NCBI GenBank assembly: GCA_021228405.1
Contig: JAJQRF010000003.1
Span: 337,581 to 401,580 of the forward strand
DNA: 64,000 bases
Source: Pyrinomonadaceae bacterium
GTDB lineage: Bacteria > Acidobacteriota > Blastocatellia > Pyrinomonadales > Pyrinomonadaceae
Direction of reading: 5' to 3'
How positions within the stretch are numbered: the stretch's first letter is position 1; the number at the start of each line of letters is the position of its first letter. This document shows positions 4,938-63,291 of this stretch, piece by piece. Under the pieces are notes generated by a model. It was not told the DNA's origin. It did no database searches and was given only the letters and a program-made list of their open reading frames with translations. The position numbers and the translations under genes were made by a program.

Positions 4938-7058
4938 TTACGGCAAAAAAGCCGCAGGAATTGCAACATCTCCGCTCTTTCCCCAAGTTACCGCAGAAAA
5001 ACTGTCAGACGCGCTTTGCAGTTGATACCATGCTCCGTTTCTGAAAACGGCGACATCGGTTTTGCGGTCGCCGTCGTAATCGGCGGCAATCGCGGTGTCG
5101 GTCGAGGCTCCGAAATTAACGGCTGAAAAACCTTGCGTTGAGCGTAACTGATACCAAGTTCCCGTTGTCGGACGGAAAACCGCAAGATCGGTTTTGCCGT
5201 CGCCGTCATAATCCGCCGCTGCGGGCAGATCGCCGACTGTGCCGAACTGCGCCGCGTTAAAACTGCCGTCCGAACTGTTCAGCCAATACCAATTTCCCGT
5301 AGCTTGGCGAAACACGGCAATATCGTCACGGTTATCGCCGTCAAAATCCGCGATCAAAGGCGCGTCGCCGTTCATCCCGAAATTAATTGTGCGTGCCGTT
5401 GCGGTCTTACTTTGTTTGATAAACCAGTTTCCCGTCGCCGGATTAAAAACGGAAATATCGGCTTTCCCGTCGCCGTCGAAATCCGCCGGACGAGGTAAAC
5501 TATCCGAAGTTCCAAACCGTTCCGCGACAAATCCGCCGTCCGAGCTTCGCAGATAATACCAGTCAGCCGTTGCAGGACGAAAAACCGCCGCGTCTGTTTT
5601 CCCGTCGCCGTCATAGTCCGCCGGAACGATCAGATCGCCCGTTTGTCCGAACGAAATTGTTTTGAACGAATTGTCCGCGCTTTGCAGAATATACCAGTCG
5701 CCTTCACGAAACACGGAAACATCGGCTTTGCCGTCGCCGTCGAAATCGAACGGCACATTGCCCGGAACGACCGCATCGTCGCCCAAGATACGCGCGATTG
5801 CAAAATCGTCATTATCTCCGTTATTTGCTCTGCCCGACACAAGGATTTTCCCGTCAGTTTGCAATGCCAAACCATACGCTTCTTCCCTGTTTCTTCCAAA
5901 AGAAATTATTGTATGCCCATTTCTTCCGAAACCTTCATCCAACGTTCCGTTCGAGTTAAATCTTGCCAACACAAAATTGGAAATAGGATATGTTCCGACA
6001 AATCCGCCAACGAAAAGCTTTCCGTCGGGTTGCAAAACTATCGGACTTAAGCTCGGAACACTGCCGCCCAAACCTAAATCCGTATTGACGATTCCGTTAT
6101 CTCCGAAAGTAGTATCGATTGTTTTGTCGGCATTATATCTGGCAACCGTCATATTAAAAGGCGGAAACTGTGAAAAACCGTTAATCAATATTTTCCCGTC
6201 CGGCTGAAGTGCAGTTCCCTGAATAAATATCTCGTTATATTCCAAATTCCAGTTGCTTCCCGTTTCGGGCGAACCGTCGGCATTGATGCGAATCCAGGCT
6301 CCGATCCCACTGGAGTGTCCGCCGACAATTATCTTTCCGTCGCTTTGAAGTGCAACTGAAGTTCCAACCTGATATGTTCCGGTATCCGTTTCCCCGGCAT
6401 AAACCGCACCGTTTCCGCCGCCGAAGGACGTGTCGAAACTGCCGTCGGCATTAAATCTGACGATTAAAAATCTGACATTGGCACTGTTGTTCGGTCCGAA
6501 ACGAACGAAACCGACCGCGACAATTTTTCCGTCCGGCTGAATGATGACATCGTTAAACTGGCTTTCCTGTCCGAAGGCAAAATTGACATAGCCGTTTCCG
6601 TTTCCAAAGCTTGTATCTAAAGTTCCGTCGGAATTATAACGGGCGATCAGTGTTCCCCTGAATAATTTATCGCCGACTAAGACAATCTTTCCGTCAGGCT
6701 GAATTTTCATCCCGAAACTTCGTTCAGTTTCGCCGAAATCGGTTACGACCTTGCCGCCTGTTCCGAATGAATTATCGAGCGTGCCGTTTTCGTTAAAGCG
6801 TGCCAAAAGAAAATCCGATAAAAACCCGTTTACGCCGTTTTCAGAGTATCCGTTGACCACGATCTTGCCGTCCGTTTGAACCGCAACCTTCTGTCCGATC
6901 TCGGTTCCGCCAAAATCGAGCATTGCTTTGCCGTTTCCGTTAAAGGTCGTGTCCAAATCGCCGGGCGTAGCTTTTGCAGCTTTGTTGAGGAGAAAAACCG
7001 TCGAAAATAAGATAAAAATGATGATGTATTTGTGTAAATTGATATTGTATCTGAGCAT
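4938..7058 (-). CDS. Secreted delta-60 repeat and FG-GAP/VCBS repeat protein
   Basis: 706 aa. An N-terminal hydrophobic segment (about residues 9-30) is a signal peptide. Residues about 32-430 are seven or eight delta-60 repeats, each recognisable by LDTTF/LDTSFG, a hydrophobic Q-x-DGKI-V strand and ARFNxDGxLD. After a short spacer, about six FG-GAP/VCBS-like repeats follow (about 435-700). They carry the calcium-binding loop DFDGDGKADVSVF or variants, alternating with WY.LRS strands. Such proteins are extracellular or surface beta-propellers of unknown ligand. No catalytic residues are evident and no sorting domain is visible at the C-terminus. An AGGAAA sits 3 nt before the ATG. It stands alone between a terminator and a divergent GH1 gene. 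Confidence 0.88.
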   Translation of the reverse strand: MLRYNINLHKYIIIFILFSTVFLLNKAAKATPGDLDTTFNGNGKAMLDFGGTEIGQKVAVQTDGKIVVNGYSENGVNGFLSDFLLARFNENGTLDNSFGTGGKVVTDFGETERSFGMKIQPDGKIVLVGDKLFRGTLIARYNSDGTLDTSFGNGNGYVNFAFGQESQFNDVIIQPDGKIVAVGFVRFGPNNSANVRFLIVRFNADGSFDTSFGGGNGAVYAGETDTGTYQVGTSVALQSDGKIIVGGHSSGIGAWIRINADGSPETGSNWNLEYNEIFIQGTALQPDGKILINGFSQFPPFNMTVARYNADKTIDTTFGDNGIVNTDLGLGGSVPSLSPIVLQPDGKLFVGGFVGTYPISNFVLARFNSNGTLDEGFGRNGHTIISFGRNREEAYGLALQTDGKILVSGRANNGDNDDFAIARILGDDAVVPGNVPFDFDGDGKADVSVFREGDWYILQSADNSFKTISFGQTGDLIVPADYDGDGKTDAAVFRPATADWYYLRSSDGGFVAERFGTSDSLPRPADFDGDGKADISVFNPATGNWFIKQSKTATARTINFGMNGDAPLIADFDGDNRDDIAVFRQATGNWYWLNSSDGSFNAAQFGTVGDLPAAADYDGDGKTDLAVFRPTTGTWYQLRSTQGFSAVNFGASTDTAIAADYDGDRKTDVAVFRNGAWYQLQSASDSFSAVTWGKSGDVAIPAAFLP

Positions 7059-7289: not shown

Positions 7290-8759
7290 ATGAAGGTTTC
7301 ACGGCGTGATTTTGCGAAAATCATCGGGACCGCAACGGTCGGTGCATCTGCGGTTTCGGCTTTCGGGGCGGAAAAAGGGACAAACGAACAACCGCTCATT
7401 CAACAACAAACTAGCGCAGGCAAATTTCCGAACGGATTTTTATGGGGCAGTGCGACGGCTTCGTATCAGGTCGAGGGCGCATTCGATAAAGACGGACGAA
7501 CTCCGTCGATCTGGGATACTTTTTCAAAAACACCGGGCAAAACCGTCAACGGCGCGACGGGCGACGTTTCGACCGATCATTACAACCGCTACAAGGAAGA
7601 CGTGCAGTTGATGAAAAATCTGGGTGTCAAAACCTATCGTTTTTCGATCTCGTGGTCGCGCGTTTTTCCCGACGGAACGGGCAAACCGAACCCGAAAGGT
7701 TTGGATTTCTACAACAAATTGGTCGATGAGCTTTTGAAAAACGGCATTCAGCCTTTTGCGACGCTTTACCATTGGGATTTACCGCAGATTTTGCAGGACA
7801 AATACGGCGGTTGGGAAGGACGCGAAACGTCCGAAGCCTTTGCCAATTACGCGGGCTACACGGCGGAAAAGCTGTCCGACCGCGTTAATCATTTTTTCAC
7901 GATCAACGAATTCGGCGCATTCGTCGAACTGGGTTATCGCATCGGGATTCACGCGCCCGGATTGACCTTGCCGCCCGCGCGTTTCAACCAAACGCGGCAT
8001 CACGCCGTGCTCGGTCACGGACTGGCAGTGCAAGCAATTCGCGCGAAGGCGAAAAAAGGCACGAAGATCGGACTTGCGGAAAATATGACGATCTGCGTTC
8101 CGGTCATCGAAACGCCCGAACATATCAAAGCGGCGACCGAAGCGACGCGCCAGATGAACGCGCAATATATGACCGTCATTCAGGAAGGCAAATATACCGA
8201 CCTTTACCTGAAAAAAGCCGGCAAGGACGCGCCGAAATTTACCGATGCCGAACTGAAAGCGATTTCGAGTCCGCTCGATTTCGTCGGCATCAATATCTAC
8301 ACGCCGCAATACATCCGCGCCGACGGTTCGGAGCAGGGTTTCGCCGTCGTTCCGCATCCGCCGTCGTTTCCGCATATGATCTCGCCGTGGCTTTTCGTCG
8401 GACCCGAAGCACTTTACTGGGGACCGCGTCACGTCAATAAGATATGGGGCGCAAAGGAAATCTACATCACCGAAAACGGCTGTTCGTCATCCGACATTCC
8501 GGCGGCTGACGGCAAAGTTTACGACACCGACCGCGTGATGTATCTCAGAAATTACCTGATGCACCTGCAACGCGCCACGAGCGAAGGCGTTCCCGTCAAA
8601 GGTTATTTTCTGTGGAGCCTGATGGATAATTTTGAATGGGCTGACGGCTACACGAACCGTTTCGGTCTGCACTACGTCGATTACAAAACGCAGAAACGCA
8701 CCCCGAAACTGAGCGCGGAACTCTACAGGGAAATCATCGCCCGCAACGGACTTGCTTAA
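7290..8759 (+). CDS. Tat-exported glycoside hydrolase family 1 (beta-glucosidase type)
   Basis: Retaining beta-glycosidase. 489 aa; the ATG follows AAGGAG at about 7276. The N-terminus MKVSRRDFAKIIG is a twin-arginine signal, so the folded enzyme should be exported, unusual for GH1 enzymes, which are mostly cytoplasmic. The GH1 barrel starts near residue 48 with FPNGFLWGSATASYQVEG. The nucleophile is the Glu of YITENG (near residue 394). The acid/base motif is FTINEF near residue 207: the Glu is present but the usual Pro of T-x-N-E-P is Phe. The C-terminus has the GH1 W-SLMDNFEWADGY sugar-binding motif. Substrate cannot be told from sequence. Confidence 0.92.
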   Translation: MKVSRRDFAKIIGTATVGASAVSAFGAEKGTNEQPLIQQQTSAGKFPNGFLWGSATASYQVEGAFDKDGRTPSIWDTFSKTPGKTVNGATGDVSTDHYNRYKEDVQLMKNLGVKTYRFSISWSRVFPDGTGKPNPKGLDFYNKLVDELLKNGIQPFATLYHWDLPQILQDKYGGWEGRETSEAFANYAGYTAEKLSDRVNHFFTINEFGAFVELGYRIGIHAPGLTLPPARFNQTRHHAVLGHGLAVQAIRAKAKKGTKIGLAENMTICVPVIETPEHIKAATEATRQMNAQYMTVIQEGKYTDLYLKKAGKDAPKFTDAELKAISSPLDFVGINIYTPQYIRADGSEQGFAVVPHPPSFPHMISPWLFVGPEALYWGPRHVNKIWGAKEIYITENGCSSSDIPAADGKVYDTDRVMYLRNYLMHLQRATSEGVPVKGYFLWSLMDNFEWADGYTNRFGLHYVDYKTQKRTPKLSAELYREIIARNGLA

Positions 8760-8760
8760 T

Positions 8761-8840
8761 AGTTGATAACGGATAACGGATAGTTGATAGCTGATAAATT
8801 ACATTGAAAAGTCAGTTATCCGCTATCCGTTATCCGTTGT
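8761..8840. repeat. Palindrome built of GATAACGGATAACGG words
   Basis: Starts within 2 nt of the GH1 stop codon. The left part carries AACGGATAACGGATAG (8768-8783), complementary to CTATCCGTTATCCGTT (8823-8838). The arms themselves are short direct repeats. Likely also the GH1 transcript end. Confidence 0.75.
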
Positions 8841-8874
8841 TTCAAATTTTGTATCGGGATTTACGTCAAATCAG

Positions 8875-9070: not shown

Positions 9071-9139
9071 CTTTTAATGCAAAAACCGACCCGGCTTTGC
9101 ACCTGAACCCTAAAATTTTAAGCGGTTTAAGTGCAAATT

Positions 9140-9204
9140 GTTCAGAGTTCAAATTTCTGTTTGGACTTCTTAGCGAAATTCAAACTGAAATTTGAACTCT
9201 GAAC
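9140..9204. repeat. Perfect 17-bp inverted repeat
   Basis: GTTCAGAGTTCAAATTT (9140-9156) and its exact complement (9188-9204) flank 31 nt. The word AGTGCAAATTGT precedes it (about 9130) and recurs near 9234, giving a direct repeat around the hairpin. Confidence 0.7.
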
Positions 9205-9252
9205 GCCTTCGAGTAACTTCAATTCATTGATTGAGTGCAAATTGTCTTTTTT

Positions 9253-9529
9253 AACGTCAGTTCGGGATCAGGAAGTTTTAGAACTCATCTCATATATAAT
9301 TTTTAAGCGTTGAGAGTCCCGCGTTTACGCGGCAAATACTCAGCGAATAGCCTTCTAAAGAAGGGACTCTGAACTTGCTCCAATCGAAATTCTGAAAATT
9401 ATATTCGATCCTGCCCGCGAAACACGCGCAGATCGTCGATCCAATATTATAAAATCCGGGCTTCTTATTTCTTTTTTTCGTGTCTTTCGCGTGTTTCGCG
9501 GTTAAACTTTCCTGATCCGAACTGACGTT
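9253..9529. mobile_element. MITE-like unit with about 27-bp terminal inverted repeats
   Basis: Ends at 9253-9280 and 9503-9529 are inverted copies (core AACGTCAGTTCGG-GATCAGG) with one indel and few mismatches. The 277-bp unit encodes nothing credible. It contains a REP-like copy (9304-9374), a small hairpin near 9381-9410 and a CGCGAA-family palindrome (9411-9501). Target-site duplications are not obvious. A composite of several palindromic elements is the alternative explanation. Confidence 0.45.
9304..9374. repeat. REP-like unit, copy 1
   Basis: Two adjacent stem-loops, CCGCG-TTTA-CGCGG (9319-9332) and CCTTC-TAAA-GAAGG (9351-9364), framed by GTTGAGAGTCC and GGACTCTGAAC. A diverged copy with the same spacing and compensatory stem changes lies at 27286-27342. 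Confidence 0.6.
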
Positions 9530-9567
9530 TTTTTTAAGCATTTTTTGGGCAAAGCCCTTAATCCGTT

Positions 9568-9819
9568 ATTGCGTCAAGTTCATACTACTTTGCGTGGAAT
9601 AGCGTTAGCTTTGCGCGACATTTCAATGTCTTTGCGTGGAATAGTTATTGTTTTGCGTGAGATTTAATAAGTTTTGCGTAGTATTGCAGTAGTTTTGCGT
9701 GAGATTTAACCTGCTTTGCGTGGTATCGCACATTTTTTGCGTGGGATTGTAATAATTTTGCGCGGGATTGCATACTCTTTGCGTGGAATCGCATACTCTT
9801 TGCGTGGGATTGTAAAATC
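9568..9819. repeat. 21-bp tandem repeat array 1 (12 units)
   Basis: Twelve consecutive 21-bp units with no insertion or deletion. TTTGCG begins at 9589, 9610, 9631, 9652, 9673, 9694, 9715, 9736, 9757, 9778 and 9799, with a degenerate ATTGCG at 9568. Each unit has a conserved 12-bp part (TTTGCGTGGGAT, positions 7-10 tolerating change) and a 9-bp part that differs from unit to unit. Stop codons occur in the plus frames and in the most open minus frame, so it is not coding. It ends 47 nt before the HTH gene, whose likely -10 (TAAAAT, 9834-9839) follows directly. Confidence 0.93.
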
Positions 9820-9866
9820 TATTTGTTTTATCGTAAAATCTTCTCGAAAATCTGGAGGTTTAAGCT

Positions 9867-25266: not shown

Positions 25267-25363
25267 ACGAATTTACAATTTTCGGGAACGCGTTTGATTG
25301 AAAAATCGGCGCGAAACGGCTTTTCCGCCGCGCTTTTTCTTCTGACGGAAGGGTAAAACATCT

Positions 25364-25613
25364 TGCTAATTGCGACGAACACCTTGCAAGTAACGCCAAA
25401 CAGTTTGCAGATACCTCCGAACGGCTTGCAAGTGTCGTGGTGCGCCGCGCAAGTGCCTCGGTGCGGACTGCAAGTGCCGTGGTGCGGACTGCAAGTGCCT
25501 CGGTGCGCGTTTTTTTGTCGTGGTGCGGCTTGCAAGTGCCTCGGTGCGGATTGCAAGTGCCGTGGTGCGGCGTTTAGCGTCGTGGTGCGGGATTTATTTA
25601 ACGCGGTGCGGAC
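25364..25613. repeat. 21-bp tandem repeat array 2 (12 units)
   Basis: Twelve units, all 21 bp except two of 20 bp. The TGCAAG-type core starts at 25364, 25385, 25406, 25427, 25448, 25469, 25490, 25531 and 25552, with degenerate units at 25511, 25573 and 25593. A unit reads TGCAAGTGCC-(GTG/TCG)-GTGCGG plus two or three variable bases. The first three units are strongly diverged, the inner ones nearly alike. Frames run open through it only because 21 is a multiple of three; nothing suggests a protein. The rest of the 25267-25678 gap holds no gene. Confidence 0.92.
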
Positions 25614-62686: not shown

Positions 62687-62854
62687 GGTGTGTCTGATTT
62701 ATTATCGGGTGTGCTTTCCGCATAATTTTTTAAATACAATTTGCTTTCTGGTGTATATGATTTATTGTTCGGTGTATATGATTTACTGTGCGGTGTATAT
62801 TTTTTACTATCGGGTGTATAAAAAAAATAATTCGGAAAGCACACCTGATAACAA
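62687..62854. repeat. 21-bp tandem repeat array 3 (about seven units) with inverted-repeat edges
   Basis: GGTGT begins at 62687, 62708, 62750, 62771, 62792 and 62813; the missing position 62729 holds a degenerate unit, so every step is 21 or 42. Core GGTGTATATGATTTA is followed by six variable bases. A near 31-bp inverted repeat (62703-62733 and about 62819-62850; core GGTGTGCTTTCCG/CGGAAAGCACACC, perfect over 13 bp) places four units in the loop. No protein is likely; the rest of 62570-62910 holds no gene. Confidence 0.9.
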
Positions 62855-62910
62855 ATCGTTACTTTCCGAATCGTTTTTGTAAATTCAAGGATATTTATTT
62901 AATTATTCGT

Positions 62911-63291
62911 TTATCCGCCATTGTTATTTCCACTCTTGTTCCCGCTGTTTTTACTTTTCGACTGCGGAATCAGATTGCTTCTGAGCCTTGCCGCTTCTTT
63001 CGCCGCCGGAGTATCTTTTCCGAGTATTCCGATCACAGCATCGAGCCTTGAAGAAAGTTTTGAATAAGTTCTCTTTTTATTGGTTTGAACCTCTTTTGTC
63101 TTTTCTTTTCTCGCCGCTGTCAGATTATCGCGCTCATTTTCGCTTACGACAATCGAAGTTTTATCGGCATTGGTTTCTTCATCCCAACCCGTAACATCCA
63201 ACCCTTTCGCCTTCAACTCAGTTTTCGCCGTTTGAAGAAATTGCACAAACTGTTCACATAAACCGATTGTTTCAGTAGTAGAAATTGACAT
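62911..63291 (-). CDS. Hypothetical helical protein
   Basis: 126 aa, not recognised. Strong TTGGAGG precedes the ATG. No signal peptide or membrane segment. Residues 1-95 are mostly charged and helical (QFLQTAKTELKAKG, NERDNLTAARKEKTKEVQ, TYSKLSSRLDAVIGILG). The last 25 residues are Ser/Asn/Gly/Lys-rich and disordered. Lies between the third 21-bp array and the methylase. Confidence 0.7.
   Translation of the reverse strand: MSISTTETIGLCEQFVQFLQTAKTELKAKGLDVTGWDEETNADKTSIVVSENERDNLTAARKEKTKEVQTNKKRTYSKLSSRLDAVIGILGKDTPAAKEAARLRSNLIPQSKSKNSGNKSGNNNGG

Follow-up and report, generated by a model that had tools for sequence, protein, structure and literature searches.

Within the 64,000-nucleotide stretch of Pyrinomonadaceae DNA analysed here (hereafter the window), a tandem array with a strict 21-bp step lies directly upstream of a gene for a small Cro/C1-type helix-turn-helix (HTH) protein. 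From sequence comparison, we consider it probable (roughly 0.68) that this is a cognate head-to-tail operator array autoregulating the HTH protein encoded directly downstream. The binding of the protein to the array, the head-to-tail geometry, the sign of regulation and the biological purpose are the parts of this reading that we infer.

The earlier note had described TTTGCG as recurring eleven times at exact 21-bp steps without an indel, and this was borne out: the hexamer starts at 9589, 9610, 9631, 9652, 9673, 9694, 9715, 9736, 9757, 9778 and 9799, that is, in ten 21-bp steps. The single degenerate unit that it listed stands for the one at the 5′ end but not as a complete count, since a second degenerate unit, whose final 8 bases are those of the preceding unit, closes the array at its 3′ end (Table 1). 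Of the 21 columns, scored for information across the 11 good units, 8 are invariant (TTTGCG plus A11 and T12), 3–4 more reach 1.1–1.6 bits and the remainder 0.2–1.1 bits, by which the description of 12 fixed and 9 variable bases per unit is a fair simplification. The autocorrelation of 9568–9819 was 0.63, 0.68 and 0.66 at 21, 42 and 63 bp, whereas first-order Markov shuffling, repeated 2000 times and evaluated at all periods from 10 to 63, gave 0.44 at best; Tandem Repeats Finder detected the array too. The region that separates the array from the glycosidase gene contains two long inverted repeats (8759–8849 and 9139–9206 of the window); their matches to Rfam microRNA models stay below the gathering scores and are probably due to no more than a hairpin shape.

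Table 1. Features of the array–HTH locus in the window, and loci of two further array-associated protein families elsewhere in the genome
Feature	Position	Strand	Remarks
Degenerate first unit	9568–9588	+	ATTGCGTCA... / ATTGCGTCAAGTTCATACTAC; in register with the array
Eleven 21-bp units TTTGCGYGRNATNNNNNNNNN	9589–9819	+	core TTTGCG..NAT, proposed HTH site; exact 21-bp steps
Degenerate last unit TATTTGTTTTATCGTAAAATC	9820–9840	+	overlaps the putative core promoter
Sigma-70-like promoter candidate TTGTAA-18-TAAAAT	9810–9839	+	not above chance (2 found vs 1.0 expected)
Shine-Dalgarno-like GGAGG	9854–9858	+	8 bases before the ATG; candidate from sequence
HTH gene, 120 aa	9867–10229	+	Cro/C1-type HTH_26 domain (about residues 1–66) and conserved C-terminal helices (78–118)
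222-aa helical family	L168:16803–17471, L207:3949–4611, L253:1369–2001, L186:11199–11870, L170:5577–6251		20- or 21-bp-step array upstream
Coiled-coil family	L250:15005–15379, L177:4655–5017, L195:8234–8611, L173:7647–8006, L191:2707–3135		tail YG.DS.EY...G..KKSE, basic end

The protein encoded behind the array matched Pfam HTH_26 above the gathering score (E 5.5e-7, 30.2 bits against a cut-off of 22), and its AlphaFold model reached a pLDDT of 89.6 with a 65-row alignment and of 43 without an alignment. In the model a small beta pair is followed by the HTH helices, of which the one at about residues 29–36 is the recognition helix, and then by helices at 78–82, 91–96 and 100–118. As a five-helix HTH fold, 63–66 residues superpose on Stl and CylR2 at 1.5–2.9 Å, and the best structural relatives (Foldseek/VIA) are the HTH of SaPI2 Stl (Z 8.4) and CylR2 (Z 7.1–7.3), over about residues 1–67 only; the model is a confident prediction of an XRE HTH. 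Neighbours of the locus in the window are glycosidase, GDPD and S46 peptidase genes. The HTH gene stands alone: of 69 loci, 41 have a convergent gene after it and only 4 have a co-directional one within 60 bp. A toxin–antitoxin pair was rejected, no close co-directional gene of at least 90 aa being present in 60 of the 64 loci with the next gene in range. A ParR/TubR partition site was likewise rejected, the next gene being convergent or distant in most loci and no ParM, ParA or TubZ partner being found among the window neighbours.

Relatives were collected by a search of 119 same-family genomes and a scan of named genome contigs, which placed members of the HTH family in other Acidobacteriota and in Bacteroidota, the latter including Spirosoma, Flavobacterium, Chryseobacterium, Epilithonimonas, Aquimarina, Imperialibacter and Prolixibacteraceae. 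After removal of proteins more than 90% alike, 67 members remained, and an array was sought within 600 bp upstream of each. A significant array was present in 57 of them (20/20 Acidobacteriota and 37/47 Bacteroidota) and in none of 28 other XRE genes; in these 57 the array lies in the promoter region of its own regulator gene, the promoter itself being putative. The best period was 21 bp at 42 loci, 42 bp at 13, and 20 and 41 bp at one each, with no other period. The earlier note had named relatives without 21-bp periodicity, or a freely varying period, as evidence against selection on spacing, and the outcome was the opposite; its reading of an operator array on one helix face is supported. 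No more than about 60 bp separate the array end from the gene start in most relatives. In the closest relative (L018), whose HTH protein is 71% identical, the gene and the neighbour downstream of it can be aligned with the window, but the array cannot; the array nevertheless retains 21-bp steps, with TTGCGT as its core. TTTTATCGTAARAT terminates the L018 array as well.

In ten Bacteroidota members no array was detected within 600 bp upstream. At one locus, L093, the array is displaced to ~580 bp upstream of the HTH family gene, and the arrays of the other array-less members may have decayed. Two loci (L021 and L068) carry a 41-bp array about 370–490 bp upstream instead of a 21-bp array near the gene. 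A clear 12-unit 21-bp array was also observed in Aquimarina sediminis (L095, 2580–2842), and the HTH family gene that it precedes by about 2.2 kb has no array nearby; an array in Bacteroidota is thus not always accompanied by an adjacent HTH gene. Arrays elsewhere in the Bacteroidota loci are rare (2 in 449 kb, one being the displaced array of L093), and a −7 promoter element was found there little above chance.

Divergence was examined in one ortholog group (L082, L087, L088 and L089), in which ten units align without an indel. Core columns diverge by a mean of 0.08 (several by 0.00), third codon positions by 0.12 and variable columns by 0.29; together with the missing indels, these values indicate that spacing and core are held, while the variable positions resemble filler. 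Compared with each of its three orthologs, L082 is similar in DNA from the first unit (−212 to −220) to 12 bp past the stop codon and has unrelated flanks, which delimits array plus gene as one module of ~580 bp. Around the module of L088, repeats at 2015–2197, 5613–5761, 6444–6591 and 9401–9586 end in AACGTTATG and resemble integron attC sites; this module may be part of a gene cassette array or adjoin one.

The unit motif follows the recognition helix of the adjacent protein. For pairs with a recognition-helix identity of at least 0.5, same-strand similarity of the unit motifs averaged 1.87 against 0.41 expected (0 of 2000 permutations), whereas opposite-strand similarity was unremarkable (p 0.48). 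Taken across every pair, motif and helix similarity correlate only weakly (Spearman 0.06, Mantel p 0.12), with the signal residing in the closer pairs, and common descent contributes to it as a confounder. XRE proteins usually bind palindromes as dimers; the HTH-linked units, by contrast, are non-palindromic and share a common orientation, with no dyad symmetry (mean z 0.19 across 45 arrays). A palindromic operator was accordingly rejected for them, whereas dyad units, for example TTTCAAGTTTGAAA or TTCAGCACGTGCTGAA, occur in about one in three of the genome's remaining arrays. The suggestion that the HTH protein may bind the array is supported as probable by this strand-specific agreement and by the family-wide linkage.

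The source genome comprises 5.72 Mb in 20 contigs and encodes eight full-length members of the HTH family, all eight with a tandem array at the 5′ side (seven with a period of 21 bp and one of 20 bp) whose end lies some 0–200 bp from the ATG. Every paralog array has its own unit, such as TTTGCGTGGRAT, CATTCGAAG..GTATGGAA, AGTCTGTCTTTCAAATATTTC, TATCATCCTGAAAGTCGC or ACCGATCTGTTTAAT. When the eight motifs were scanned over the 2.44 Mb of this genome covered by our scans, each scored 45–50 at its own tandem sites and 21–31 at the best site elsewhere, and for none of the eight was a second tandem site near its own strength found in that sequence.

Under the proposed operator-array reading, the recognition helix would read the conserved 9–12 base core of each unit, and successive molecules or dimers would sit head-to-tail on one face of the DNA, two helical turns apart. 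Protein contacts independent of the DNA sequence would hold neighbouring molecules together, which is our proposed reason why spacing is kept across phyla while the letters change. The filled array would then switch expression of the HTH gene itself; we propose cooperative autorepression as the likeliest effect because the array runs into the putative promoter region. Each paralog would form an orthogonal, self-contained circuit with its own code. If this is right, operator geometry has been kept across two phyla while the DNA code was rewritten in nearly every copy, and the family offers dozens of natural protein–DNA pairs for the Cro/C1 recognition code as well as ready orthogonal autoregulated switches. 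It would also become testable why a regulator needs 8–12 sites and what purpose the roughly 80 further 21-bp arrays of the same genome serve.

Those other arrays emerged from a periodicity scan of the 2.44 Mb, which returned 64 arrays of period 21, 10 of period 20 and 18 of period 42, with at most 8 for each other period. In total, 98 arrays have a period of 20–22 or 40–42 bp; about 83 are non-coding (on contigs C4, C13, C18, C19 and C20 of G000, loci L145–L264), and their units are nearly all unrelated. Convergent genes flank 25 of the 83 non-coding arrays, an enrichment over the 63 of 403 intergenic gaps of at least 250 bp. Only a minority of the 21-bp arrays in this genome adjoin an HTH gene, so the period alone is no proof of HTH binding. 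The window itself holds two more arrays with a 21-bp step: one of the GGTGCGGACTGCAAGTGCCTC type at 25339–25588, flanked by convergent genes for a zinc-ribbon and an Mpo1-like protein with no HTH gene adjacent, and one with GGTGTATATGATTTAYTGTTC at 62695–62861, which lies 3′ of the gene for a 126-aa protein (62911–63291, minus strand) and upstream of a histidine phosphatase gene.

In this genome, four protein families have an array 5′ of each member that was found: the HTH family (8/8), a helical family of 222 aa (5/5), coiled-coil proteins with a basic tail (6/6 in the scanned sequence, with 21- or 42-bp arrays) and a family starting with MNxRQEAKLTMFR (3/3). The 222-aa family reaches up to 12 matches per genome, and its upstream array is kept in most testable relatives from other genomes (L296–L318). 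For these three non-HTH families, no convincing NCBIfam, PHROG or PADLOC match was found, and Pfam returned only generic Ig-like or fn3 tails; the coiled-coil family is without a Pfam assignment. We tentatively raise the possibility that array and HTH gene belong to a large undescribed class of self-contained, transferable modules, each a 20–21-bp (two-turn) step array with a small-protein gene. A shared physical principle would fix the step, while the sequences of array and protein would diversify together. This class would comprise the HTH and several unnamed helical families, with tens to hundreds of arrays per genome, and its role might go beyond promoter control, for example to nucleoprotein scaffolds or chromosome organisation.

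An unlikely alternative is that the array serves mainly as a structural platform, in which the HTH protein coats a block of 200–300 bp in a centromere-like or nucleoid-organising role and autoregulation is secondary. Eight to twelve sites far exceed what a promoter switch needs, and up to eight orthogonal arrays are scattered through one genome, each module standing alone, which speaks for such a platform; yet the position of the array end close to the gene start in most relatives is what promoter control predicts, and an ATPase or partition gene was found neither by Pfam among the genes around the array in the window nor among recurrent neighbours. Less likely still, the arrays could be by-products of a mechanism that duplicates DNA at a fixed step, with HTH genes merely adjacent to some of them. 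The abundance of non-coding arrays with unrelated units, many between convergent genes, would suit this explanation, but chance linkage is untenable given the eight of eight paralogs and 57 of 67 relatives, the Bacteroidota loci are almost devoid of arrays elsewhere, the core is constrained and the motifs track the recognition helix. We give an equally low probability to use of the array by another protein, or by intrinsic curvature from phased tracts, with the HTH protein not binding. A host factor recognising spacing is conceivable given the several non-HTH families with 5′ arrays of the same step; against it, units differ from array to array, ranging from GC-rich to AT-rich with no shared sequence or tract pattern, and the motifs linked to HTH genes vary with the recognition helix in a strand-specific way.

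The earlier note had also considered a transcribed array or a guide-like system, which we regard as very improbable: a constant and a variable part superficially resemble repeat–spacer arrays, but on neither strand does the array fold better than shuffled sequence (z −0.32 and +1.43), it has no Rfam match, its repeats are not identical, and in the one ortholog group examined the variable bases change faster than third codon positions do. No Cas-like gene was within reach among the ten neighbouring proteins, as had been stated, and PADLOC recognised no defence system among these ten apart from one weak match to a desaturase-type model. A CRISPR array was rejected, there being no block of identical repeats of CRISPR size and only about 9 bases between cores.

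Several known systems share parts of this arrangement. Plasmid iterons are tandem direct repeats of 19–22 bp beside the gene of the Rep protein that binds them, and Rep is often autoregulated; here, in contrast, the array is chromosomal and the protein has only an HTH_26 domain and no Rep domain. An iteron–Rep replicon was rejected, no plasmid or phage record matching (viral contigs gave motif-level matches only) and no sign of an origin being found. Omega protein heptad arrays and MraZ boxes are short direct repeats in the regulator's own promoter, but they involve RHH or SpoVT folds, a fixed recognition sequence and a shorter step. AraC/XylS regulators use direct, non-palindromic half-sites with 21-bp centre spacing on one helix face, with two sites rather than the 8–12 seen here and an unrelated protein family. 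Among Cro/C1 proteins with solved structures, CylR2 and SaPI2 Stl fold like the N-terminal 65 residues (Z 7.1–8.4), but the matches barely cover the C-terminal helices (78–118), and we know of no array of this type for either protein. A mechanistic parallel is offered by BldC of Streptomyces and RdfS of Mesorhizobium, small winged HTH regulators that form head-to-tail oligomers on DNA; the sites of BldC are direct repeats, and it builds filaments with one molecule per DNA turn, and RdfS negatively autoregulates its own promoter (PMC11963761). Those proteins use a winged HTH and a one-turn step, whereas a Cro/C1 fold and a two-turn step are found here, and a family-wide, sequence-changing array before every family gene is not described there (PMC11963761). 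Operator arrays as such, iterons and HTH filaments assembled head-to-tail are known kinds. In the open-access literature we found neither a regulator family that conserves a two-turn step across phyla while the sequence changes in each copy nor a genome-wide class of such arrays.
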